Assembly (NCBI GenBank): GCA_002439285.1
Contig: DJTQ01000046.1
Location: forward strand, 1-15,560
Length of the DNA stretch: 15,560 nt
Direction of reading: 5' to 3'
From: Paenibacillaceae bacterium UBA6304
GTDB lineage: Bacteria; Bacillota; Bacilli; Paenibacillales; Paenibacillaceae
In this document: positions 1 to 14,600 of the stretch, one piece after another
Layout: each line of letters starts with the position of its first letter
Position numbering within the stretch: the stretch's first letter is position 1
Notes under the pieces: model-generated
What the model was told of the DNA's origin: nothing
What the model saw: the letters and a program-made list of their open reading frames with translations, nothing else
Databases searched by the model: none
Position numbers and translations under genes: made by a program

Positions 1-896
1 TCGTCCAGGTATTGGGCGCTCAGGGCTTCGCTCTTTTGAAGCACGGCGGACTGCTGGATCGCGGCGATGACGGCACCGGTGACTTCCTCCGGCGTGTCTG
101 CAGAGATAGCGCGGATGGCGGGCGCTAGCTCCTTGTCCTGCAGCGCATAGAGCACCGGCAGGGTAACCTGGCCTTTGCGCAGGTCGCTGCCGGCCGGCTT
201 TCCGAGTTTCTCCGCGGACTGCGTGAAGTCGAGGATGTCGTCGCGGATTTGGAAGGCCATGCCGAGCTTCTCCCCGAAGAGGTAGAGCAGATCGGCCGTT
301 TCCTCATCGGCTCCGGCGGACTGGGCGCCGATTCGTAAGCAAGTCGCCATAAGCTGGGCGGTTTTATTTCTCGATTTCTCCAGATATTCCTCTATCGATA
401 CGTCGTAATCGTAAAGATGTGCCAACTGTTGATATTCTCCCAGACAGAGCTGCGTAGTTGCCAGGGAGGAGAGATCATAAACATAACGCTCTCTGTCCGC
501 CGAATAGACCGAGATGAGTTCGATGACTCTGGCGGACATGTAATTGCCGACATGCAGGGCTTCGTTTATGCCAAGCTTGACATGCAGTGCTTTTTGCCCG
601 CGGCGAATCGGGGAATCATCGATGATATCGTCATGAATCAGGGAAGCCGCATGGATGAATTCGGCCGCAGCCGCGAGTCTCCATGTTTTGCGTTCATCGG
701 GAGAGGGGCCGAAGCGGCTGCCGACAATGACCATGAGCGGACGGACTCTTTTGCCTCCGGAACGGACCAGATCCACAATGCTCTTAGCTAGTGCGGAGGA
801 ACGAGGGACGTCCTTATCATGTTTGACTATATTCTCAATCTCCCTATCGACCGACCGGAGTGAAATATCTAGCGCCTCATCCAGTTTAAGCTTCAT
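1..896 (-). CDS. hepT: Polyprenyl (heptaprenyl) diphosphate synthase, catalytic subunit; 3' end outside window
   Basis: Trans-polyprenyl diphosphate synthase that adds isopentenyl units to an allylic diphosphate, giving the menaquinone side chain. The translation starts MKLKLDEALD and is open to the window edge, giving 298 codons of a family that is usually about 320 residues, so only a short C-terminus is missing. Visible motifs are GGKRVRP near residue 50, the first Asp-rich motif in HDDIIDDSPIRRG near residue 90, and the second in FQIRDDILDF near residue 220. The ATG at 896 has AAGGAGG seven bases upstream. It lies 46 bases after a HepS-like gene and in the same direction as an NADH dehydrogenase and a flavin lipoprotein, so it could be the DmkB-type enzyme of a flavin-based electron transfer locus rather than the housekeeping HepT. 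Family assignment is firm; the choice between these two roles is inferred from context. Confidence 0.93.
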   Translation of the reverse strand, partial: MKLKLDEALDISLRSVDREIENIVKHDKDVPRSSALAKSIVDLVRSGGKRVRPLMVIVGSRFGPSPDERKTWRLAAAAEFIHAASLIHDDIIDDSPIRRGQKALHVKLGINEALHVGNYMSARVIELISVYSADRERYVYDLSSLATTQLCLGEYQQLAHLYDYDVSIEEYLEKSRNKTAQLMATCLRIGAQSAGADEETADLLYLFGEKLGMAFQIRDDILDFTQSAEKLGKPAGSDLRKGQVTLPVLYALQDKELAPAIRAISADTPEEVTGAVIAAIQQSAVLQKSEALSAQYLD

Positions 897-942
897 GATG
901 AACCCTCCTTATTCATGTTGACGGATCAATGTGGCTTACATT

Positions 943-1395
943 TCATATGGCTTGGCTTTGCCGGGCTCCGTTGCTCTCAATCCGCAAAAACAATTCCATT
1001 CCTTTGAGCAACCGTTCGTCTTCGAAATTTCCGGCAATTCGCTTAATTTGGATTTGTTTAATAACGGGAGCCAGATGGATGAGAAGGTCAATCTCTTGCC
1101 ACCCCAAGCAGAGTTGGGTATAAAAACTATATAAATAGTCGCCGTCCAGCACCTTGCGTGTCAGTATTTCTCCGCTGTCGGAAGCGTCACAGTCACGATG
1201 GCGCGAGAGGGCGAGCTTGATTGCGATGTAAATGGACATAAGGCGCTGCTGGCGTACCGCAGCCATGTCGTACTGGTCCAACAAAATTGCAAAGGGCCGT
1301 ACGTCTTCATCGGTAATATGGAGCTGAATCCCGGTATCGGGCGAAATTTCACCTTGTAATAAGTGACATGCGTCTTGGATGAGCTTATGAATCAT
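943..1395 (-). CDS. Small HepS-like protein, possible accessory subunit of the polyprenyl diphosphate synthase
   Basis: A 150-residue protein without signal peptide or membrane segment. I start it at the ATG at 1395, which has GAGGAG nine bases upstream; a longer reading from GTG at 1479 would begin inside a hairpin and lacks a ribosome binding site. The segment KVLDGDYLYSFY followed by a helical stretch resembles the (V/L)xGDY(F/L)S..Y region of HepS, the non-catalytic subunit of Bacillus heptaprenyl diphosphate synthase. HepS is usually about 250 residues, so this would be a short version. It sits 46 bases before the catalytic synthase gene and in the same direction, which fits a two-component synthase. 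The similarity is judged by eye and is modest; that it is a gene is likely, the function is tentative. Confidence 0.7.
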   Translation of the reverse strand: MIHKLIQDACHLLQGEISPDTGIQLHITDEDVRPFAILLDQYDMAAVRQQRLMSIYIAIKLALSRHRDCDASDSGEILTRKVLDGDYLYSFYTQLCLGWQEIDLLIHLAPVIKQIQIKRIAGNFEDERLLKGMELFLRIESNGARQSQAI

Positions 1396-1459
1396 AAGGG
1401 CACACTCCTCGGGCTGAAATGCCGCGATAGTTAAAATCTTAGGTAATAGTGTAAAAATT

Positions 1460-1489
1460 AGAGTAATGTGCGATGACACACATTACTCT
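1460..1489 (-). terminator. Perfect inverted repeat between ndh and the HepS-like gene (weak terminator or attenuator)
   Basis: AGAGTAATGTG at 1460-1470 and its exact complement CACATTACTCT at 1479-1489 form an 11-bp stem with an 8-base loop. On the minus strand the hairpin follows the NADH dehydrogenase stop codon and is followed by AATTTTTA; on the plus strand it is followed by five Ts. The stem is AT-rich, so it is probably a partial terminator that reduces transcription into the two prenyl synthase genes, or an mRNA stability element. Confidence 0.5.
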
Positions 1490-1527
1490 TTTTGAAATCA
1501 GTTAAAATACTTAATAATTCATTCCGC

Positions 1528-1557
1528 TAATTACTATTAATTACTCTTAATTACTCG
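1528..1557. repeat. Three tandem copies of a 10-bp repeat at the end of ndh
   Basis: TAATTACTAT, TAATTACTCT and TAATTACTCG follow one another without gaps, the last copy covering the stop codon of the NADH dehydrogenase gene. On the coding (minus) strand the core AGTAATTA recurs, and AGAGTAAT is also found in the hairpin arm at 1460-1467. Confidence 0.7.
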
Positions 1558-3428
1558 GTATATAGATACCATCTTCGTACAAGCGGGATTCTCTTCCATT
1601 GCTTCTTGAGCCAAGGAAGAACATAATAATCCAGGCCAAATGCGCTACCCGAACCGCCAATCAAGGCTACGCCTGCGGTCATGTACCAGATCATTTCCGA
1701 CGAAGCCATGCTGGAAGACCAGATCATGACGCCGAGCGCCACGGTGGCAGCGGAAGCTACGGCTGTGAACAGTCCGACGATAATCATGACGCCGAGGGCG
1801 ATTTCCATGAATACCATGAAGAACTGGAACACGGTGGCCAAAGCGGTGAATCCGCCATCCGAGGAATAGAAGAAGATATCCATAAACCAGTTGACTATGC
1901 TTTTGATGAATCCTGGTACAGGCAAAGCGGTAACCGCTGTAGAAGCACTTTCGACAGCCGAAGCGGCAGTTTGCGCATCTACGGTTTGTGTAACTTCGGA
2001 AGCTGCTTCACTGGCCGCGGAGACAGCGTCACCCACATTCGGATTAGCCGGGATCAGGAAGATGTTCGAAGGATCCTTGAAGATTTTCGGCAGCTTATCC
2101 AAACCTTCTTCTAACCACTTGTATCCGACGAAGATGCGGAGCGGAAGAGTCCAGAAGTTAGGAGAGCGTTTGGCGAAGTGTCCCCCGACAAAGCTTCTCC
2201 GGTTGTTGACATGGAAGAATTCATGCATCATGTAGGTCCAGACTTTGGCGAAGCCGGCTACAGTAAACAGATAGTACATATTAATTAAGTGCTTGGAGAA
2301 CATCGCCATGAAACCGGTGAGCATGAACATCTTGTTCGGCAAGCCCACGTTGGCGACGCCGTAACGGCTGCCGATGCAAACCATCGTGCCGTGGAAGCCA
2401 GGTTTATAAGATTTCTTAGGTTTGTTATGAATGTCGGCATGAATGTTATGGGCGATCAACGGGCCGGCTTGCTCGGCGTTCTCTACCATTTGCGGTACAG
2501 GACGTGTTTCGCCTTCCGGAATGAAGAAGATGTTATCGCCTACGATATAAACATTTTCGTGATCGACGCTTTGCAGCTTGTCGTTCGTCACGATCCGTTT
2601 GCGGCCTTCTTGTTTCACATCCAGCTTGCCTACCAGTTCGGAACCTTCAACGCCGGCGGTCCATACTACAGTATCCGCTTCGAGCTCTTTGTCTCCGAGT
2701 ACAACGCCGGTAGGAGTTACACCGGTAATTTTGGCGCTGGTGATGATTTCAACATTCATTTTGTGAAGACGTTTGGCTGCCTTTCCAATCAGTTTGTCAG
2801 GAAGAATCGGCAGAATCTTTGGAGCCATATCTGCTACAACGAGACGAACTTCACTAGGATCAATGAAGAACTCCTTGCAGAGTTCGTCGCGGAACTCCGC
2901 CATTTCGCCGACCAATTCCACGCCGGTAAACCCTGCGCCCACAACGACGAAGGAGAGCATTTTGCGACGTTTGGCCGGATTGTTCTCTTTCGCAGCAAGC
3001 CCGAATTTATTCCGGATTTGTTCTTTCAGACGAACGGCGTCTTCATAAGACCAAAGGGTTAGGGAATGCTCCTCGGCACCCGGGATGCCGAAGAAGGTCG
3101 GCTTACATCCGGTACCGATGACCAAGTAATCGTATTTGTAAGTGTTTTTCTCGGAACGGAGTTGCTTGGAAGCAAAATCGATATGATCGATCGAGTCCAG
3201 GACAACATCGACTTTTTGACCGGCGAATATCTTCTTCAACTCAATCTTGACCGAATCTTCCGGAGCGCGGTTGGCTGCGACTTCATGCAATTCAGTCAAA
3301 AGAGTGTGGTAAGGATTGCGGTCAATCAGCGTAATTTCTACGTCTTTATCTTTCTTGAACAGTTTGGCCAGGTGCTTGGAAGTAACGACACCGCCATAAC
3401 CGCCGCCTAGAACGACTATTTTCTTCAA
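1551..3428 (-). CDS. ndh: Type II NADH:quinone oxidoreductase with C-terminal membrane (DoxX-like) extension, Ndh2 type
   Basis: Single-subunit flavoprotein that oxidises NADH and reduces menaquinone without pumping protons. From the TTG at 3428 it has 625 residues; typical NDH-2 has about 400. Residues 8-13 (GGGYGG) bind FAD, 164-169 (GAGFTG) belong to the NADH Rossmann fold, and VYIVGD at 293-298 is the second FAD motif. After about residue 425 there are an amphipathic segment, an Ala/Ser/Thr-rich linker (465-505) and about three membrane helices (525-600) resembling DoxX, ending in a basic tail. An NDH-2 with extra C-terminal membrane helices is the form (Ndh2) used in flavin-based extracellular electron transfer in Listeria. 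I prefer TTG at 3428 over GTG at 3437 because AAGGTGAG lies just before it and MKKIVVLGGG is the usual family start. It is 51 bases after the flavin lipoprotein gene, probably cotranscribed. Confidence 0.93.
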   Translation of the reverse strand: MKKIVVLGGGYGGVVTSKHLAKLFKKDKDVEITLIDRNPYHTLLTELHEVAANRAPEDSVKIELKKIFAGQKVDVVLDSIDHIDFASKQLRSEKNTYKYDYLVIGTGCKPTFFGIPGAEEHSLTLWSYEDAVRLKEQIRNKFGLAAKENNPAKRRKMLSFVVVGAGFTGVELVGEMAEFRDELCKEFFIDPSEVRLVVADMAPKILPILPDKLIGKAAKRLHKMNVEIITSAKITGVTPTGVVLGDKELEADTVVWTAGVEGSELVGKLDVKQEGRKRIVTNDKLQSVDHENVYIVGDNIFFIPEGETRPVPQMVENAEQAGPLIAHNIHADIHNKPKKSYKPGFHGTMVCIGSRYGVANVGLPNKMFMLTGFMAMFSKHLINMYYLFTVAGFAKVWTYMMHEFFHVNNRRSFVGGHFAKRSPNFWTLPLRIFVGYKWLEEGLDKLPKIFKDPSNIFLIPANPNVGDAVSAASEAASEVTQTVDAQTAASAVESASTAVTALPVPGFIKSIVNWFMDIFFYSSDGGFTALATVFQFFMVFMEIALGVMIIVGLFTAVASAATVALGVMIWSSSMASSEMIWYMTAGVALIGGSGSAFGLDYYVLPWLKKQWKRIPLVRRWYLYTE

Positions 3429-3479
3429 GAGACTCACCTTCTCGCTTTAGGGTGTAAAATCGTGGAATGCGGGAGTTAC

Positions 3480-3785
3480 TTATTTTGCTTGTTCAAGCGC
3501 TTTGGTCACCAGGCCAAAGTAAGATTGAAGGCTGATCGATACGCCGGAGAGGGCGTCGGTTTTGCCTTCTTCATTGAAAGTAAGGGAAGCCGGATCTTGC
3601 TTGTCGACCAAATACTGTTCAGCGATGACCGCTTGTTCATGCCATTCGGATTGGGCTCCGCCGGCTTTCATGCCGTATTTGCCGTCAATGGAGTTTTGTT
3701 TCTTATCTTCACCAGCTTCATTAACGCCACTGAAGTTTACTTTAATGATTTTGCCTCCAGCAACAATTACATCGGCGGTTTTTTT
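3480..3785 (-). pseudogene. Second FMN-binding domain of the flavin lipoprotein, cut off by an in-frame TGA
   Basis: Continues the frame of the lipoprotein gene directly after its TGA stop and runs 101 codons to a TAA, so the full reading would be 303 residues, about the size of a two-domain PplA. It contains the whole rest of a second FMN-binding domain: VIVAGGKI, GKYGMKAGGAQSEWHEQA, and the flavinylation-type motif DALSGVS (SGVS at residues 282-285 of the joined protein). No separate ribosome binding site is evident before its internal ATG at 3671. The frame is intact and otherwise undamaged, so the stop is either very recent, a sequencing error, or read through. Confidence 0.8.
3631..3683. 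repeat. 53-bp direct repeat, copy 2 (second FMN-binding domain)
   Basis: Matches 4006-4058 at 51 of 53 positions. It encodes the shared GKYGMKAGGAQSEWHEQA segment. The two domains differ much more outside this block. Confidence 0.85.
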
Positions 3786-4391
3786 TCAGCCGGAATGCTC
3801 GTCGAATTTTTCGCCCTCAGCATGGTAAGTGCCGTCTTTATATGTTCCAGCTTCAACAGGACCTGCAGTTAAAGCTTGATCAGCCAAGTTAAAGAATTCA
3901 CTAACATGTACGGAAACGCCCGAGATTGCATCGGTTTTACCTTCATCGTTCAAAGCGATATCTTTAGGGTCTTGTTTCTCGATCAGGTATTGCTCAACCT
4001 TTTGTGCTTGTTCGTGCCATTCGGATTGGGCTCCGCCGGCTTTCATACCGTATTTGCCTTCTTCGGAATAAGTAACTTTATCTACTCCTACTTTTTCGCT
4101 AGTCGCGTTCCACTTAGCTTCTGTAATTTTTCCGCCGGCTACCGTCAGAGTAACATAGGATTGCCAGCCGCTCTCTGGATCAGCTTCGCCTTGTGCAAAA
4201 TAAACGCCGTCTTGGTACTTGCCTTGTTCAGCCGCTGTATCCGTGCTATTTGCTTTGTTAGCGTTGCCTGCGGCACTATTCTCAGCAGGGGTATTGTTGG
4301 CGGGTGCGGCATTATTACCGTCGTTGGAACCGCAGCCTGCTAGCAGACCAAGCAACAAGGCACTGCACAGTAAAATGGATGCTTTTTTCAT
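3786..4391 (-). CDS. FMN-binding lipoprotein, PplA-like (extracellular electron transfer), truncated at one domain
   Basis: Secreted lipoprotein expected to carry covalently bound FMN outside the membrane and pass electrons to extracellular acceptors. Residues 1-19 are a lipoprotein signal ending in the lipobox LAG-C with Cys20 as the lipidated residue. A disordered Asn/Ala-rich linker (21-57) leads to an FMN-binding domain (about 60-173) with SGWQSYVTLTVAGGKI and the motif DAISGVS (SGVS at 157-160), comparable to the D-x-x-S/T-G-A-T/S site modified by ApbE-type flavin transferases, here with Ser. A second domain begins at about 183 but stops at codon 202, a TGA at the place of the Trp in SGW of domain one. 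GGAGG lies nine bases before the ATG. The next gene is the membrane NADH dehydrogenase, the expected electron source. Family assignment is good; flavinylation and extracellular transfer are inferred. Confidence 0.88.
   Translation of the reverse strand: MKKASILLCSALLLGLLAGCGSNDGNNAAPANNTPAENSAAGNANKANSTDTAAEQGKYQDGVYFAQGEADPESGWQSYVTLTVAGGKITEAKWNATSEKVGVDKVTYSEEGKYGMKAGGAQSEWHEQAQKVEQYLIEKQDPKDIALNDEGKTDAISGVSVHVSEFFNLADQALTAGPVEAGTYKDGTYHAEGEKFDEHSG
4006..4058. repeat. 53-bp direct repeat, copy 1 (first FMN-binding domain)
   Basis: Partner of 3631-3683, with two mismatches in 53 bases. Both copies are in the same reading frame and encode the same residues, which suggests a recent internal duplication or gene conversion between the two domains. 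Confidence 0.85.
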
Positions 4392-4674: not shown

Positions 4675-6207
4675 TTAATCTTTTTTTAAGGGAGATTTTC
4701 CCCGATCATCCGGCCCGGGTATTAATTCGACTTCGGGAACTCCAGATACAAAAGGAGAGCTGCGGTAACTGAATATTTTTTTGATATTTCCCCGTTGGTT
4801 TTTGGGGCCGAGAATGTACAAAGTATCTCCTTCTTCAATAATCGTGTTGCCGCGAGGGGTGACGATTTGTTCGCCCCGGATGACCGCCGTGACCAGCACC
4901 TCTTCGGGTAGATCCAGCTCCTGCAATTCCTTGCCTATGATGTTCATCCCCGCGTGGATATGAAGATGATTGATTTCGGATTTGGTCTTGCCCAAGGCTA
5001 CGAGTTCAAGGAGAGAATGAGGCTGTGAATCGCTCTCTCCGGTCAGGCTTAGTTTCTCGGCCAAAGGGGAGATCGTAGTCCCTTGAATGATTGCCGAGGT
5101 CAGAATGACAAAGAAAACAACATTAAAGAACAGAGGCCCGTTGGGAAGTCCGCTCATTAAAGGATAAGTCGCCAGCACGATCGGAACGGCACCGCGAAGC
5201 CCGGCCCAGGAGATCAAAGTTTTTTCTTTTAATGAAAATTTAGCGAACATCAGGCTCACGTAAACGCCGACAGGGCGGGCTATGAGCATCAAAATCATGG
5301 ATAAGGCGAGCCCGGGGATCATAATTCCCGGCAACTCGGCAGGAAATACAAGCAGCCCGAGGAGAGTAAACATGGTGATTTGCATGATCCAGCCAAATCC
5401 TTTGTTAAATTGAAGTATCGACTGCCTATAGGTCAGATCCGAATTTCCGAGGACCAGTGCCATGACATAAACCGCCAGCAGTCCGCTGCCGTGAACGGTC
5501 GCTGTAATTCCATAGGTCAGAATAGCAAAGGCAACGGCCATGACCGGATATAACCCGGAGGAGTCGAAATTGATGTTGTTGATGACCTTGACGGCAATCC
5601 ATCCGAACCCGAGCCCCAGTAACAGTCCAAGACCCATTTCCAGAAAAAAGGACAGGATGAGCGGCAACAAATCATGATTCGAATGCTGAATCCATTCAAT
5701 TAAAGATACAGTCAGGAATACGGCCATGGGATCATTACTGCCCGATTCGGCCTCCAGCGTGGAGGTAATCCGCTCTTTGATATTTTTTCCTCCGAGAACG
5801 GAGAATACCGCGGCAGCGTCGGTAGAGCCGACAATAGCGCCAAACAGCAGGCCTTCTTCGAAAGAGACCCCTAATATATAATAGGCACTGATCCCGATGA
5901 TCAAGGTCGTAAGGATGACGCCGATGGTGGCCAGAGATAAGGCGCTGGAGATGACGGGCTTGATCGTAGTGTACTTGGTCTGCATGCCGCCTTCAAAAAG
6001 AATGACGATCAATGCGAAAGTGCCGACCAATTGGGCGATAAAAGCATTGTCAAAGTAAATGAACCGGCTGAGCACCATTCCCGCGGCAATAAAAAATACA
6101 AGCGCGGGCAAACCGAAGCGACTTGAAAATTTGGTGGCGAAGACGCCTATGAGGAGTAAGCTGGATAGCAAAATAACAATAGAATCGGTGTAGGCGGTTA
6201 AGTCCAT
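4675..6207 (-). CDS. nhaP2: K+ (or Na+)/H+ antiporter, CPA1 family, NhaP2/CvrA-like with TrkA-C domain
   Basis: Integral membrane cation/proton exchanger of 510 residues. About 12-13 hydrophobic helices fill residues 8-385. Family motifs are visible: GSTDAAAVFSVL (127-138), the ion-binding Asn-Asp pair in EAESGSNDPMA (158-159), and GLRGAVPIVLATYP (336-349). Residues about 405-480 form a soluble TrkA-C (RCK-C) domain, including ELDLPEEVLVTAVIRG and IIEEGDTLYILGP, which in this family senses a cytosolic ligand; a short charged tail follows. The presence of this domain and overall size favour the K+/H+ antiporter NhaP2/CvrA type, but the cation cannot be read from sequence alone. The ATG at 6207 has AAGGAGG five bases upstream. 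The gene is divergent from the HD-GYP gene and appears to be transcribed alone. Confidence 0.92.
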   Translation of the reverse strand: MDLTAYTDSIVILLSSLLLIGVFATKFSSRFGLPALVFFIAAGMVLSRFIYFDNAFIAQLVGTFALIVILFEGGMQTKYTTIKPVISSALSLATIGVILTTLIIGISAYYILGVSFEEGLLFGAIVGSTDAAAVFSVLGGKNIKERITSTLEAESGSNDPMAVFLTVSLIEWIQHSNHDLLPLILSFFLEMGLGLLLGLGFGWIAVKVINNINFDSSGLYPVMAVAFAILTYGITATVHGSGLLAVYVMALVLGNSDLTYRQSILQFNKGFGWIMQITMFTLLGLLVFPAELPGIMIPGLALSMILMLIARPVGVYVSLMFAKFSLKEKTLISWAGLRGAVPIVLATYPLMSGLPNGPLFFNVVFFVILTSAIIQGTTISPLAEKLSLTGESDSQPHSLLELVALGKTKSEINHLHIHAGMNIIGKELQELDLPEEVLVTAVIRGEQIVTPRGNTIIEEGDTLYILGPKNQRGNIKKIFSYRSSPFVSGVPEVELIPGPDDRGKSPLKKD

Positions 6208-6300: not shown

Positions 6301-6327
6301 GAAAACTTTGCCATATCCTGCCGATAA
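6301..6327 (+). promoter_or_regulatory. Sigma-D-like (flagellar/motility) promoter of the HD-GYP gene
   Basis: GAAA at 6301-6304, a 15-base spacer, then GCCGATAA at 6320-6327 match the Bacillus sigma-D pattern TAAA-N15-GCCGATAT at 10 of 12 positions with exact spacing. Transcription would start near 6334, 13 bases before the ATG at 6347, which rules out the upstream TTG at 6308 as the protein start if this promoter is used. Confidence 0.55.
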
Positions 6328-6346
6328 TGATGTAAGAAGCGGTTTG

Positions 6347-7873
6347 ATGGAAGGAATGACTAGTCCCTTGACGGTATACAAGACATTTATTTCTCGCTTG
6401 AGGTTGAATTATGCAGCGGGCACGCTGCTTGCGGTGATCATGATCGGAAGCCTGATATTATTCACCCAGCTAAACATTCCTAAAGAGCAATATTGGTTGC
6501 TGTCCGGCGTGCTCGCCCTGTCGCTCTGCATCATGGTTGCGCTGGAGTGGATTGTGTTTTATTTACAGCTTCGTCCGATTAGAAACTGCTTTACGGCTGA
6601 GGTCGACAACTTTTCCACTCTGCAAAATGTATACATAAGAACGCACAGATTACCCGCTCTGGCTGTAAAACGAATGGTGGGTCCGCACTTATTCGGATTG
6701 ATGTTACCGGCGGCAGGGATGACACTTTGGCTGATTTATATGGATAAACTATCTATTCCCTATTTTTATGTGTTGCTTGCCTCCATGGGAATGGTGCTCA
6801 TCGCCGGGATGAATGCTCTAATCGAGTTTTATTTAACTTCCTATGCCATACGGCCAATTTTGCTCGAATTAGGAGCCCGGTCGCTTCGTCAGTTTGGCAA
6901 AGAAATAACGCTTGGAGGAAGGGTGCTCATATCCATTCGTCGTAAACTGAGGTGGAGTTTCTTTCTCATCGGAGCCTTCCCTCTTTTGCTTTACAGCCTG
7001 GCGGTTCAGTTCCGGATGGGGGCCTGGAGTCTCGCCGATATATCCTATTGGCAGTGGGCCGCCTATATTTTGTTGATTGGCCTTGGCATTGCCTTTATAG
7101 GTTCCAGGCTGCTTACCCGGGAGATCGAGTTGCCGATCCAGCATTTATACGAAAAGATGTCCGAAGTGAAGAACGGGTATGTTCGGAGCGGAGCCAGCGA
7201 TTTATTCTCTGATGAATTCTCCAGGCTCGTTTCAGGGTTCAACCATATGCTGCGGGGCATCAAAGTTCAGGCAGAGCGAAACAATCAACTACTGGAGAGT
7301 TATTTTGCAACCTTGGCAGCAGCACTGGACGCGCGTGACCCGTATACGGCGGGCCACTCCTTAAGGGTTGCGGAATATGCGGTCGCCATCGGCCTGCTCG
7401 CCAAGCTTCCGGAAGAAGAAATTCTTGATTTGAGGAAGGCGGCGTTGCTGCACGATATTGGCAAGATCGGGATCCGTGATGCGGTTCTGCTGAAAGAAGG
7501 CCGCCTGACCGACGAAGAGTGGGACCAGATCAAACAGCATCCCGTGCTTGGAGAGGCGATTTTGAAGCAGATCGAGCCGGTGGACGCTATGGCTCCTTTC
7601 TTACCGGGTGTGAGATCGCATCATGAACGTTATGATGGAGGAGGATATCCCGATGGCTTAAAGGGAGAAGACATCCCATTGTTTGGCCGGATCATTGCGG
7701 TAGCCGATGCTTTTGACGCTATGACTTCTAACCGTCCTTACCGGAAAGGGCTGAATGAAGAGAAGGCAATTTCGATTTTGGAAGAAGGCCGGGGAACCCA
7801 ATGGGATCCTTATTTCGCAAAGCTGTTTGTGGATGCTTATCGAAAGAATAAAGTAATCAAACAGGCCCCGTGA
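6347..7873 (+). CDS. Membrane HD-GYP domain protein, cyclic di-GMP phosphodiesterase
   Basis: From the ATG at 6347 it has 508 residues. Six hydrophobic helices (about 25-43, 50-72, 113-131, 139-162, 203-221, 236-256) precede a HAMP-like region (258-309) and an HD-GYP domain (317-502). The domain has the metal-binding HDIGK motif (369-373), the His pair in RSHHERYDGGGYPDGL and the diagnostic GYP (433-435). HD-GYP enzymes hydrolyse c-di-GMP, and lower c-di-GMP favours motility, which fits the sigma-D-like promoter just upstream. The two membrane-inserted segments contain no known sensor domain I can name. The start is uncertain: ATG at 6356 is also possible, and an in-frame TTG at 6308 lies within the predicted promoter. 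The last four codons and the stop lie inside the terminator hairpin. Confidence 0.92.
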   Translation: MEGMTSPLTVYKTFISRLRLNYAAGTLLAVIMIGSLILFTQLNIPKEQYWLLSGVLALSLCIMVALEWIVFYLQLRPIRNCFTAEVDNFSTLQNVYIRTHRLPALAVKRMVGPHLFGLMLPAAGMTLWLIYMDKLSIPYFYVLLASMGMVLIAGMNALIEFYLTSYAIRPILLELGARSLRQFGKEITLGGRVLISIRRKLRWSFFLIGAFPLLLYSLAVQFRMGAWSLADISYWQWAAYILLIGLGIAFIGSRLLTREIELPIQHLYEKMSEVKNGYVRSGASDLFSDEFSRLVSGFNHMLRGIKVQAERNNQLLESYFATLAAALDARDPYTAGHSLRVAEYAVAIGLLAKLPEEEILDLRKAALLHDIGKIGIRDAVLLKEGRLTDEEWDQIKQHPVLGEAILKQIEPVDAMAPFLPGVRSHHERYDGGGYPDGLKGEDIPLFGRIIAVADAFDAMTSNRPYRKGLNEEKAISILEEGRGTQWDPYFAKLFVDAYRKNKVIKQAP

Positions 7874-8616: not shown

Positions 8617-8733
8617 ATTCGGGTTAAATCGATGCTTATACAAAAAAATGCCAATTGCCTCATTTTGCATCACCCGGCTTGTGTTAATATGGAATAGGCT
8701 ACGAACAACGACATGACCTACGGGAGTGAGCAT

Positions 8734-10203
8734 ATGGGCTTTGGCAAGATGTTTATACTTAATTTGGGGTTGCTGATCACGGTTGCTTATCTGGCAAACG
8801 TGATATATAAATATGCGTTTACCAAGGTTTCTTTTAAAATCAATTACATTTTATCGTTGGCCTTGTTCATATTCGCAGGGTGGGTCTGCATGAAATTCGG
8901 CTTCCAATTAAACGATGACGTTATTTTCGACCTTCGCATCGTACCTCTGATTATTGCCAGTGGCGTCTATCTGCAGCCGTTCGCACTTATGATTATCGGG
9001 ATAGGAATTGGTCTGGCCAGGCTCACCTTAGGCTGGAATGACGCCGCTATGGCAGGACTTATCAATCTTTCGATATTAGGGATTGTTTGTGCCGCCCTTA
9101 ATATTTGGATGAGACGGAGCAACTATGGGTTAATAAGCAAGGGTGCCATTACGATTGTGATCGTTAATATAATTAACACGCTTAATATATCCATATTCGG
9201 TGTTCTCCCCATGAAAAAATATTTATTGGAGATTGTGCCGATTACGTTTCCGCTGACGATGGGGCTTAGCGTAATTTTTGCGCTGATTCTCTGGGATTTC
9301 CAAATTGAACGGAGACAAACGCTGGAATTGAAGTACGCCAATGAATTGCTGCGAAAACAGACGGAAGAGCTGCGTACGGCAAAAATCATATTGGAGGAAC
9401 GGGCGGGTCAGCTTGCGCTGGCTTCGCAGTATAAGTCGGAATTTTTAGCGAACATGTCTCATGAACTAAGAACGCCCTTAAACAGTATCATTAATCTGGC
9501 CCAGATTATTTCCGAAAATGAGGGTGGAGACGGGACTACGAATGGAGAAGAGGATACGCCCAATTACGGGACGATCATTTATAAGTCAGGACAAGATCTG
9601 CTTAAGCTGATCAATGATATTCTGGATTTGTCTAAGGTGGAAGCAGGACGGCTGGAGGTCGTGGAGGAGGATGTCGCGATCGCTGAAATTGCGGAATTGC
9701 TAGAAATGCACTTTGAGCACATGGCGAGCCAGAAAGGTGTTGCGTTTGAAATCCGTATTGAGGAAGGGCTTCCTTGCACGATTCTTTCGGATGCCCAGCG
9801 GATTGGCCAAATTTTGCGTAATTTGCTGTCCAATGCTTTCAAATTCACCCAGAATGGACAAGTCAAACTCGAAATCCGCAAAACGGGCATCGATGACATG
9901 ATGGAAGGGGAATGGATTGTTTTCGCGGTAACGGATACCGGGATCGGAATCCCGGAAAACAAGTATGAAGCGATCTTTGAGGCTTTCCGTCAGGCGGACG
10001 GTTCCATTAGCCGGAAATACGGAGGGACCGGTCTCGGATTGTCGATCAGCAGGGACCTGGCCCGCTTGCTCGGAGGGTTTATCCGCTTGAAGAGCAAGAT
10101 AGGGTTAGGTAGTACATTTTCCCTGTATCTGCCGCTAACCTCGGATATGAAAGAGAATGTAGCCGGAGAGGTTGGCTTGAAACAAAAAGACAAGTTGCTT
10201 TAA
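8734..10203 (+). CDS. Sensor histidine kinase with LytS-type 5TM receptor domain, orphan
   Basis: Membrane sensor kinase of 489 residues. Residues about 3-188 are a block of five to six hydrophobic helices of the 5TMR-LYT type, as in LytS. A coiled-coil segment (190-233) leads to the HisKA domain with the phospho-accepting His243 in MSHELRTPLN, then an HATPase domain with the N-box NLLSNAFKFT (Asn367), G1 box DTGIGI (401-406) and G2 box GGTGLGL (430-436). All catalytic motifs are intact. I start at ATG 8734 because GGGAG lies seven bases upstream; ATG 8713 in the same frame has no ribosome binding site. No response regulator is adjacent, so the partner must be elsewhere. The signal is unknown; LytS-type domains have been linked to cell-envelope and pyruvate sensing, which is only a general hint. 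Confidence 0.92.
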   Translation: MGFGKMFILNLGLLITVAYLANVIYKYAFTKVSFKINYILSLALFIFAGWVCMKFGFQLNDDVIFDLRIVPLIIASGVYLQPFALMIIGIGIGLARLTLGWNDAAMAGLINLSILGIVCAALNIWMRRSNYGLISKGAITIVIVNIINTLNISIFGVLPMKKYLLEIVPITFPLTMGLSVIFALILWDFQIERRQTLELKYANELLRKQTEELRTAKIILEERAGQLALASQYKSEFLANMSHELRTPLNSIINLAQIISENEGGDGTTNGEEDTPNYGTIIYKSGQDLLKLINDILDLSKVEAGRLEVVEEDVAIAEIAELLEMHFEHMASQKGVAFEIRIEEGLPCTILSDAQRIGQILRNLLSNAFKFTQNGQVKLEIRKTGIDDMMEGEWIVFAVTDTGIGIPENKYEAIFEAFRQADGSISRKYGGTGLGLSISRDLARLLGGFIRLKSKIGLGSTFSLYLPLTSDMKENVAGEVGLKQKDKLL

Positions 10204-10256: not shown

Positions 10257-10634
10257 ATGAAGAAGGAAGTCATTTCAACATCGGCAGCACCAGGAGCGAT
10301 CGGCCCTTATTCCCAGGCCGTACAAATCGGGGACTTCGTGTTTACTTCGGGCCAACTGGGTCTGATTCCCGAGACCGGCGAACTTGCCGAAGGTATCGAA
10401 GGCCAGACGCTTCAAGCGCTGCGCAATGTTAGTGCCATATTGGAAGCGGCGGGAACCGGGTTAGATAAGGTCGTTAAAACGACGGTATTCCTGCAAAATA
10501 TGAATGACTTTGCCAAAGTGAATGAAATTTACGGAAGTTTTTTTTCCGAACCTTTTCCGGCCCGCAGCGCGGTCCAGGTAGCCCGTCTACCTAAGGACGG
10601 ATTGGTGGAGATCGAAGTAATCGCTTCGAAGTAG
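10257..10634 (+). CDS. ridA: RidA family enamine/imine deaminase
   Basis: RidA (YjgF/YER057c/UK114) hydrolyses reactive enamines and imines, such as 2-aminoacrylate made by PLP-dependent dehydratases, in the cytosol. The 125-residue protein is family length. Conserved elements are GPYSQAV (16-22), FTSGQLG (29-35), the substrate-binding Arg103 in PARSAVQVARLPKDGLVEIE, and Glu120. These mark the active RidA subgroup. The ATG at 10257 has AGAGGGA seven bases upstream. It follows the kinase gene by 53 bases and ends before a strong shared terminator. Confidence 0.96.
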   Translation: MKKEVISTSAAPGAIGPYSQAVQIGDFVFTSGQLGLIPETGELAEGIEGQTLQALRNVSAILEAAGTGLDKVVKTTVFLQNMNDFAKVNEIYGSFFSEPFPARSAVQVARLPKDGLVEIEVIASK

Positions 10635-11679: not shown

Positions 11680-14600
11680 ATGAATCAACGCCTTTATGGA
11701 ATTTGGCTCGGAGATGTATTGTTTTGTTTCTCCGGTGAAATATCGGAAACCAAAGTGGACGCATGGACGGCGGCAGTCAGACCGCTGGAGCCTTCAGCCG
11801 GAGTACGCCCGTTTCAGCATGCTGCGCTTAGACTTGCGGAAATCCGATACCCGGTATCCTCAGGGCGCAGGATGGCGGGCACCGGCGATCGCAAGGGGTT
11901 AATGGGAAGAACGCTGGAGGGGCTTGCTTTGCCAGTCCAGGAATCCTGGCAGTTATTGTTGAACTGGGATGAGAGCTATTTTGCGGCCAACGGAATTCAA
12001 CCGGGCCAGGAGTTGGAGTACTGGAGCGTTGCGGCCCGTTTTGCGCTGGATCTGTTGCTGCGTGGCCGAATTGTCCCGGCGACGAAGCCAGGGGCAAATA
12101 CGCTGGGGCGCAGGCGGGGAACGCAAGCCGCCATAAGTGCGGTGTGGGGGCCACTTCTGAAAGAGAGCGACGAAGAGCGTTTTCGCCAGATGGCGGCATC
12201 CATGCCGCCCGTGGCATTGGCTGCGGTGCAACCGCTGGGATGGCCGGAGAACGGCTCACTTGGTGACCGTCAGCTAGCCTTACTGCACTCTTTTCTGACA
12301 GAGATGATAGACCATGAGGTCCGAAAAGCGGTAGGGGACCTTGGGAGGAAACTAAATCCCTCGCGGGCCGATTACCGCAGGGGGTCGTCTCCGCTTACCG
12401 AGCTGTGGTGGAATAACTTGCTTAGTGCAGGAAGTCCGCCGGACATTCAAGGAAACAGCGTTGAGGTAGAGCATTTGACGGAAGAAATTTCGGGTGCCGG
12501 AGGAGCGCGGCCGAGTGCGGACGAAGAGGGCGGGAAGGAAGGAGACGTCGGTTCGTTGCGATTATGTCTGAGAATCGAGCCGATACGGGACAACGACGCA
12601 GATGAACGGAATCCGGATCTTCTCTGGCGGCTGACTTTATGGGGAGAAGGTGCAGAGGACCCCTCCGTATTGCTTCCTGCGGGTTTGATCTGGAGTTATC
12701 CGGCACCGGACATGATCATCCGTGGGCGAAAGTATCGGAATGTACGCCGAAACTTGTTGCTTCGCATGAAGAAGGCCGCGGAATTATCGGCCGAGATTGG
12801 TGCCGCGATGGAATCGGCCCGGCCTGAAGTATTGGAACTTCGGCCCGAAGAAATGTACACTTTCCTGAGCCGCTCCGTAGTCCTGCTCCGCAAGCACGGC
12901 GTGAATGTGCAGATGCCTTCCCGGTGGACTCGGGAGGGCAGGCGCGCCGCAGGCGTGAAGATCAAGGCGTCCGGCTGGGAGAAGCCGAAGGGAGAAGAAG
13001 AGCCGAATGCAGGGCTTGGCGTTCAACAGTTGGTTGCTTTTGAAGCGGGGGCGGTTCTGAATGGGGAAGAGCTAAGCCGGGAGGAGCTGGCGCAACTGGC
13101 CTCTTCCAAATCGCCGCTCGTCTTTTTCCGTGGTGAGTGGATTGAGATTGACGTCAAGGAACTTCGCCAAGTGCTGAAATTCATGAAACGGCAAGAGAGC
13201 GGCAGCATGACGTTTCGGGAATTAATGTATTTGGCTTCCGGAGCCGATCGGGATAACCGGTTCGATGGTTTTCAAGTAGATACTGTGGAAACGGAGGGAC
13301 TGCTGGCCGTTTTGTTGTCCGGAGATACGCTGCGCGTTTGTTCATCGCGCCGAGTGCCTGAGGCGCTGAACGGTACGCTGCGCCCTTATCAGGAGAGAGG
13401 CTTTCAATGGCTGTCATCGATGCGGCAGCTTGGCTTTGGGGCGCTATTGGCGGATGACATGGGGCTCGGCAAAACGGTGCAGGTGATTACGGAACTGCTC
13501 GACGGGTTGGAAACGACCCCAGGAACCAGCCTCATTGTTTGCCCGACCTCACTCCTCGGAAATTGGCAGCGGGAGTTGGATCGATTTGCTCCGGAAATGC
13601 GTCTGTATGTTCATCATGGGGGTGATCGACTGCATGGAGACCCGCTTTTGCAAGAATGCAGCAGAAGCGATGTGGTGCTGACAACCTACCAGTTGGCCGG
13701 ACGGGACGGTACGGAGCTCCGCGATTTGAAGTGGAAGACGATCGTCCTCGACGAGGCGCAGTATATCAAGAACTTTGGCACAAAGCAGGCTCAAAGCGTG
13801 ATGAAGCTGAATGCGCCGCAGCGAATCGCGATGACGGGGACCCCGGTGGAGAACCGGCTTAGCGAGTTGTGGTCGATCTTTCAGTTCTTAAACCCCGGTT
13901 ATTTGGGTACGAACGCCTCGTTTCGTTCTAAATATGCGGGAGCCGGAGAGGGGCAAGCCGCCGAGCTTCACAAGCTGCGGAAATTGGTGGCACCGTTTCT
14001 GCTCCGGCGGTTGAAGAGCGATCCGGATATTCGCAAGGATTTACCGGAGAAAATCGAGCTTAAATCGTACTGTTCTCTGACTGCGCAACAAGCCGGAATG
14101 TACGAGGCAGTAACGGCGGAGTTGATGTCGAAGATCGGCGACAGCGGCGGCATCGCCCGCAAAGGTCTTGTGTTGTCCTCGCTCACCCGGCTTAAACAAA
14201 TTTGCAATCACCCGCAGTTGGCAGCCGGAAGGCCTCTATCCGGCCCTGCCGCAGGAATGGGACGATCGGGAAAAATGGAGCGGCTGACGGAACTGCTTGA
14301 TCTCATTATGGATAATGGCGAAGCGGCACTCATCTTCACGCAGTACGTGCAAATGGGGGAGCTGCTTCAGGAGCAGTTGACACGACGGTACGGGAGAACC
14401 CCGTTTTTTCTGCACGGGGGTGTTGTAAAGCAAGAGCGTGACGAGATGGTGAAGTCTTTTCAAGAGGGGGAGGGAGCCCCGATCTTCGTGCTGTCGCTTA
14501 AAGCTGGCGGCGTAGGGCTCAACTTAACTCGGGCTAACCATGTAATTCATTATGACCGGTGGTGGAATCCGGCGGTCGAGAACCAGGCGACGGACCGGGT

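Follow-up and report, generated by a model that had tools for sequence, protein, structure and literature searches.

What kind of locus lies at the left end of contig DJTQ01000046.1 of Paenibacillaceae bacterium UBA6304, and how would the quinone of such a locus be supplied? The window analyzed here is that entire contig (C314; 15560 bases); the draft genome to which it belongs has 452 contigs, totals 4.30 Mb and is 85.9% complete. On its minus strand, from position 4391 down to 1, lie pplA, ndh2, a gene for a HepS-like protein and dmkB. A preliminary description of this DNA had taken them for part of a flavin-based extracellular electron transfer (FLEET) locus. Our analysis supports this, with genes for ApbE, EetA, EetB and ECF components found in the same genome and the housekeeping menaquinone operon on a separate contig, and we hold with high confidence that positions 1-4391 are one side of a FLEET locus, as in Listeria. 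The occurrence of FLEET in Paenibacillus is already known (PMC10373932). The UBA6304 locus is of this known kind, to which it adds a conserved subunit and what appears to be another quinone supply, and its pplA is interrupted in the assembly.

Gene content and order of the locus

The four genes are on one strand, as had been described, whereas pplA is not the single open frame it was taken to be. The gene (3480..4391, minus strand) codes for a lipoprotein with two domains of the flavin mononucleotide (FMN)-binding type, recognized from an alignment of its relatives and a profile match to the solved domain 2kzx, with the NCBIfam model lipo_FMN_PplA below its cut-off; an in-frame TGA lies at 3786..3788, and relatives have uninterrupted copies. 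Next comes ndh2 (~1551..3428, minus strand), coding for a type II NADH dehydrogenase (NDH-2), for which the likely start, judged by eye, is the TTG at 3428 behind GAGAAGGTGA, with a GTG at 3437. The NDH-2 part occupies residues ~5-400 and is followed by a C-terminal extension of ~225 residues. The closest solved structure to residues 5-396 is YjlD and the remainder is unmatched; residues 532-619 match a DoxD-type subunit weakly (24 bits, cut-off 300). The extension runs to residue 628, and simple hydropathy scanning shows a single strong hydrophobic helix in it, with two further peaks that are weaker; an NDH-2 with a membrane extension at its C-terminus is a component of FLEET loci. The HepS-like small subunit gene (~943..1395, minus strand) gives 150 amino acids from the ATG at 1395, with a longer GTG frame reaching 1479, and dmkB (3..896, minus strand), for a HepT-like polyprenyl-diphosphate synthase (PF00348, 218.9 bits), is cut by the contig end.

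When named genomes were scanned with Ndh2, 74 loci were obtained, 67 of them from Paenibacillaceae (one, L040, titled Bacillus sp.) and 7 from outside the family; nearest to the window was the locus of Fontibacillus phaseoli (98%), followed by that of Paenibacillus vini (97%). In the 67 family loci PplA was found 65 times, Ndh2 67, the HepS-like protein 67 and DmkB 66, all on one strand, and every locus holding all four genes (64/64) has them in the order of the window within 6.5 kb. Presence at this level together with the invariant order indicates that the genes are associated above chance. The HepS-like gene, which had been picked out as an addition to the Listeria locus, is thus present in each of the named Paenibacillaceae loci (67/67). 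Among 118 sampled genomes of the family it occurs together with pplA in 42, always 1.9-2.4 kb behind pplA. In the 7 loci from outside the family no HepS-like match was obtained at 1e-5; a DmkB match follows ndh2 in 6 of them, and the sequence of the seventh (L069) stops 121 bases after ndh2.

Convergent to dmkB, most family loci carry genes for a UbiA prenyltransferase (57/67, counting L041, where it is truncated at a contig end), a class-III aminotransferase (56) and a U32-type protein (54), and beyond U32 in most loci follow EcfT, EcfA', EcfA, EetB and EetA. Of the 59 loci with at least 9.5 kb available beyond ndh2, 39 extend as far as EetB and 25 as far as EetA. There is one PF07456 (EetB) match per genome in 27/27 genomes searched; the PF07456 gene lies beside EcfA in the 24 Paenibacillaceae among them. 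These 24 loci are short, and EetA was recognized in 19 of them and ApbE in 11, the ECF genes being those that the open reading frame picker recognized. Two compact loci (L056 and L061) consist of pplA-ndh2-hepS-dmkB, a convergent EcfT-EcfA'-EcfA-EetB-EetA block and then ApbE.

In UBA6304 the corresponding block is on another contig, C324. It codes for ApbE, a lipoprotein by its sequence (294.9 bits), NusG_II/EetA (99.2 bits), PF07456/EetB (151.9 bits) and EcfT (CbiQ family in Pfam, 120.5 bits), with two EcfA (ABC-ATPase) genes, named by similarity to relatives, between EetB and EcfT. The ApbE match, beside eetA and eetB, is the only one in the genome. Gene order on C324 is that of the relatives, up to a complete U32 gene with the contig end 43 bases behind it. 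On the map of the P. vini locus, C314 ends at 13438 and the aligned part of C324 at 17438, so that ~4 kb, which in relatives hold UbiA and the aminotransferase, would be absent from the assembly; P. vini has an uninterrupted UbiA. Going by synteny with P. vini and Fontibacillus phaseoli, C324 probably lies to the left of the window. The genes for ApbE/FmnB, EetA and EetB that had been expected to the left of position 1 were found in this way, and the leftward side is not made up solely of housekeeping menaquinone genes; for DmkA there are candidate counterparts (see below). At Rfam gathering thresholds there is no riboswitch in the window, in L081 (C324) or in L006. A match to the small RNA BsrC lies at 14045-14130 (+) of L081, ~260 bases past the 3' end of apbE (69.6 bits, gathering threshold 38). 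Two other FMN_bind proteins of the genome were considered as the electron transfer lipoprotein and left aside, no ndh2 or apbE being recognized beside them in the stretches listed. The one on C385 is fused to the start of a FAD-binding domain (FAD, flavin adenine dinucleotide) and runs off its contig, and the one on C437 has three domains in one long frame.

Several observations, both in UBA6304 and in the family, weigh against the reading as a FLEET locus. The joining of C314 to C324 is by synteny and was not assembled. Two sampled genomes (G037 and G043) have PplA without the HepS-like protein and three (G075, G113 and G139) the reverse, and the locus of Paenibacillus pinistramenti (L031) reads ndh2-hepS-dmkB-UbiA-ECF with no recognizable PplA. 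Near EetA/EetB, the 24 EetB loci show an HD-domain gene instead of ApbE in 6 and an unrecognized neighbor in 7. G113 and G139 belong to the same genus as the window.

Prenyl-diphosphate synthase and quinone supply

In Listeria, Ndh2 takes electrons from NADH and hands them to a dedicated quinone; the quinol gives them to PplA-bound FMN or free flavin, which in turn reduces acceptors outside the cell (PMC9973259, PMC8906456). EetB exports FAD together with FmnA (ECF-T) and EcfA/EcfA' (PMC9973259), FmnB attaches FMN to an acceptor threonine that can be replaced by serine (PMC9973259, PMC8906456), and extracellular electron transfer (EET) activity is unchanged on deletion of eetA (PMC9973259). 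By analogy, Ndh2 of the present locus would oxidize NADH and reduce a dedicated membrane quinone, and the quinol would deliver electrons either to the FMN of PplA or to flavin in free form, and through these to acceptors such as ferric iron; UBA6304 may be able to use extracellular acceptors. EetB, EcfT/FmnA and EcfA/EcfA' would together export FAD, and the ApbE lipoprotein FmnB would attach FMN to PplA. The side chain of the dedicated quinone would be made by DmkB together with the HepS-like small subunit.

DmkB retains both aspartate-rich motifs (DDIID and DDILD), and its best named model is HepT, at a score below that model's cut-off. The HepS-like protein has no DDxxD-type motifs and is predicted to have an isoprenoid-synthase-like helical fold that is nearest to HepS. 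The starts of the two genes lie less than 1.2 kb apart in all 66 loci having both. A precomputed PF07307 label is attached to two HepS-like homologues, and the best PF07307 match among the 47 members aligned (47 of 64 frames) has an E-value of 2e-4. The assignment to the HepS family meets two difficulties: the window protein itself scores under the Pfam cut-off for PF07307 (17.6 bits against 30), and 12 of the 47 members weakly match the catalytic family PF00348 (best 1.3e-4), so that sequence alone separates the HepS-like proteins from that family poorly. A stop within the matched stretch was seen in 5/45 HepS-like matches in the sampled family genomes.

Is this pair distinct from the housekeeping one? 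We constructed a DmkB tree from 30 of 73 frames, 21 housekeeping copies and one outgroup, in which a branch supported at 100/100 splits the EET DmkB of the family (25 rows) from the housekeeping copies. The family EET group is joined by the EET copies from outside Paenibacillaceae (95/94), with long branches meeting there. The outgroup branches are saturated in the DmkB tree, and roots and outgroup branches of the trees are not reliable. The polyprenyl-diphosphate synthases of UBA6304, DmkB on C314 and HepT on C173, fall into separate groups of this tree. These results suggest that the HepS-like protein and DmkB form a dedicated two-subunit prenyl-diphosphate synthase for an EET quinone. A recent duplication of the housekeeping pair as its origin is unsupported, the EET groups of both UbiA and DmkB being separate with 100/100.

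The housekeeping genes themselves are on C173, in the form of hepS (cut), ubiE, UbiA, ubiX, a member of PF02621 (MqnA/MqnD family) that we read as mqnA, and hepT. In 20/20 relatives hepS, mqnA and hepT were recognized side by side, and the open reading frame picker recognized ubiE in 19, ubiA in 19 and ubiX in 11. No MenD above the cut-off was found in the UBA6304 genome or in any of 24 relatives (0/24), the UBA6304 genome holds two PF02621 proteins, and the MqnA of C173 is matched at 1e-40 in 23/24 relatives, being missing in G015. Because MenD is not above the cut-off and MqnA/PF02621 genes are present, the quinone supply appears to be of the futalosine type, as far as the genes show.

The prenyltransferase that would join chain and head group has several candidates, namely the MqnP-like UbiA of 57/67 relatives' loci, which in UBA6304 falls into the assembly gap, and two MenA-like proteins encoded elsewhere in the genome. 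In a UbiA tree made from 24 of 51 locus UbiA frames, 20 housekeeping copies (19 relatives and the C173 copy of UBA6304) and 3 outgroups, the EET UbiA group (24 rows) stands apart from the housekeeping copies on a branch with 100/100 support. Locus UbiA and housekeeping UbiA are both above the cut-off of the broader model TIGR01475; the NCBIfam MqnP models are not reached (269 against 430 bits for locus UbiA, 328 against 430 for the housekeeping copy), so that 'MqnP-like' denotes similarity only. The class-III aminotransferase gene overlaps UbiA or sits within tens of bases of it in many loci (e.g., 14239-16456 in L006); we know of no aminotransferase step in quinone synthesis.

Listeria DmkA is of the MenA type. 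For Paenibacillaceae we tentatively propose, as a possibility that falls clearly short of the probable, that EET uses a private quinone branch assembled from futalosine parts: the HepS-like protein, DmkB and the MqnP-like UbiA would provide an EET-only quinone with a head group derived from 1,4-dihydroxy-6-naphthoate, as opposed to the MenA/1,4-dihydroxy-2-naphthoate (DHNA) route of Listeria. In most loci the UbiA may attach the chain. This quinone might stay demethylated, and probably would on the proposed branch, since no methyltransferase was seen in the locus.

A serious contender, itself at somewhat less than even chances, is that UbiA and the aminotransferase are neighbors without a role, and that the prenyltransferase is a MenA-like protein encoded elsewhere (C158 or C318), perhaps supplied with DHNA from neighbors. 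Four loci (L056, L059, L061 and L063) are without UbiA and aminotransferase, which therefore need not belong to the system. Two of these, the compact L056 and L061, lack U32 as well and are otherwise complete; holding the whole set without UbiA, they speak against attachment of the chain by UbiA, weaken the futalosine-branch proposal and strengthen the alternative. Consistent with the alternative, the C158 protein is above the TIGR00751 menA cut-off (106.8 against 102.15 bits), with the C318 protein below it (88.2 bits), dmkA lies elsewhere in the genome described in PMC10373932, and MenD is not above the cut-off in UBA6304 or in 24/24 relatives. Conversely, UbiA is convergent to dmkB in all 57 of the 67 loci that have it, often lies tens of bases from the aminotransferase gene or overlaps it, and is placed between dmkB and the ECF/EetB genes, which counts against the alternative. 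The C158 protein (L121, 123-1646, +) has 507 residues, of which the second part is the one above the menA cut-off and the N-terminal part is pyridoxamine-oxidase-like by eye.

If the futalosine-branch proposal is true, the same task would be served by two quinone supply routes in different Firmicutes. FLEET is in any case present in bacteria with futalosine-pathway genes and without recognizable MenD, so that the carrier may follow another route than in Listeria. With a separate housekeeping pair present, the question of why EET needs a quinone of its own can be put cleanly, and a family of 'hypothetical proteins', the HepS-like one, becomes a testable part of Gram-positive EET.

The internal stop in pplA and the surrounding genes

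The TGA splits pplA into 201 open codons, which cover the signal peptide and the first domain, and a further 101 codons. The protein has the lipobox LLAGC (read by eye) and, across its two similar domains, the candidate acceptor motifs DAISGVS and DALSGVS. A profile of 22 PplA relatives (22 of 60 frames aligned) matched 2kzx, a solved domain, at 2e-41. A precomputed PF04205 label is attached to several relatives, and among 120 PplA homologues listed many of those with a name are called 'FMN-binding protein'. Some features of PplA count against the reading as a FLEET locus, among them the interruption itself. The NCBIfam PplA model gives 45 bits for the first half of pplA and 76 for the intact Fontibacillus protein, with a cut-off of 325, and neither half of pplA reaches 1e-3 with Pfam FMN_bind. 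The usual flavinylation motif has the form SGAT or SGAS, and the first domain has SGVS instead in nearly all of the 22 aligned relatives.

That the FLEET locus is real but decaying in UBA6304, the TGA marking a pplA pseudogene and EET being lost or reduced, seems to us unlikely. In its favor, UBA6304 has the sole internal stop among 38 full-length best PplA matches from the 118 sampled family genomes, and the window PplA differs from those of P. vini and F. phaseoli by more non-synonymous codons than these two differ from each other. The segment behind the TGA, in contrast, retains the frame, the motif and a similar synonymous share: relative to P. vini, codon differences are 25 synonymous and 16 non-synonymous behind the stop and 41 and 21 before it, as counted without signal peptide and linker. 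A recent stop would account for this, as would an error in the consensus of the draft assembly. In addition, a different genus of the family has PplA matches of a single domain in 6 genomes, the open frames being 170-202 codons long (in one of the six the match itself contains a stop), and hence the open first part of pplA might work. The TGA may be a recent stop, a consensus error or a feature of a gene for a working one-domain protein. Four genomes of the same genus as the window (G071, G103, G045 and G131) have a second, diverged PplA-like protein elsewhere, at 88-98 bits.

The remaining alternative, a housekeeping respiratory locus in which NDH-2 and an ordinary heptaprenyl-diphosphate synthase for menaquinone have the lipoprotein adjacent by chance, would fit HepT as best named model for DmkB, the resemblance of the HepS-like and HepT-like proteins to the Bacillus pair and NDH-2 as a normal respiratory enzyme, but it is highly improbable and was rejected, since the ordinary hepS...mqnA-hepT operon sits on C173 and in 20/20 relatives, DmkB and HepT fall into separate tree groups, apbE, eetA, eetB and ECF genes accompany loci of the window type, and the HepS-like gene co-occurs with pplA.

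To the right of pplA, and directly upstream of it, the window carries a gene for a potassium/proton antiporter with a TrkA_C domain (4675-6207, minus strand; NCBIfam 589 bits, above cut-off); a similar antiporter gene is ahead of the locus in some relatives, e.g., L006, L007, L015 and L022. It is followed by genes on the plus strand for a membrane protein with an HD_5 domain (6308-7873; 134.6 bits), perhaps a cyclic-di-GMP phosphodiesterase going by NCBIfam neighbors, and for a histidine kinase that matches the 5TM-5TMR_LYT sensor weakly (8713-10203; 24.9 bits, cut-off 24.6). A RidA-like gene, recognized by eye, lies after the kinase gene at 10257-10634. The HD_5 membrane protein is recognized near the locus in many relatives.

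Relation to known systems

No description of a HepS-like EET gene, of an MqnP-like UbiA in such a locus or of a futalosine-fed FLEET was recognized in the literature searched, which excluded most subscription journals. The closest described case is Paenibacillus sp. Cedars, of the same genus group, which reduces ferrihydrite and magnetite; a single operon of this strain holds seven of the eight Listeria genes and also encloses ecfA1-ecfA2-ecfT, and a dmkA homologue lies elsewhere (PMC10373932). In the part of that paper available, neither a HepS-like gene nor an MqnP-like UbiA is mentioned, and a text search for 'futalosine' gave 0 occurrences. 

For the synthase, the nearest counterpart is HepS/HepT of Bacillus subtilis, a solved heterodimer (9kp1) of a catalytic HepT-like and a small HepS-like protein that is the best match in both sequence and fold. 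The HepS-like protein has ~150 residues instead of the 261 of B. subtilis HepS and falls below the Pfam cut-off, and it belongs to a second pair besides the housekeeping one. The neighborhood of EetB corresponds to the FAD exporter formed by EetB, FmnA, EcfA and EcfA', in that EetB adjoins EcfA, EcfA' and EcfT on C324 and in relatives; the Paenibacillaceae locus has a full ECF module, whereas in Listeria EcfA/EcfA' also serve the RibU importer, and other genomes with eetB beside ECF-T/A genes have been reported (PMC9973259). Relative to the Listeria FLEET locus, Ndh2, a two-domain lipoprotein PplA, a polyprenyl-diphosphate synthase, ApbE, EetA, PF07456 EetB and ECF-T are found again in one neighborhood (PMC9973259, PMC8906456). 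The Paenibacillaceae loci differ from it in the HepS-like partner of DmkB, in EcfA/EcfA' lying within the locus, in the arrangement as two convergent blocks, and in the MqnP-like UbiA of most loci, in a host without MenD above the cut-off.

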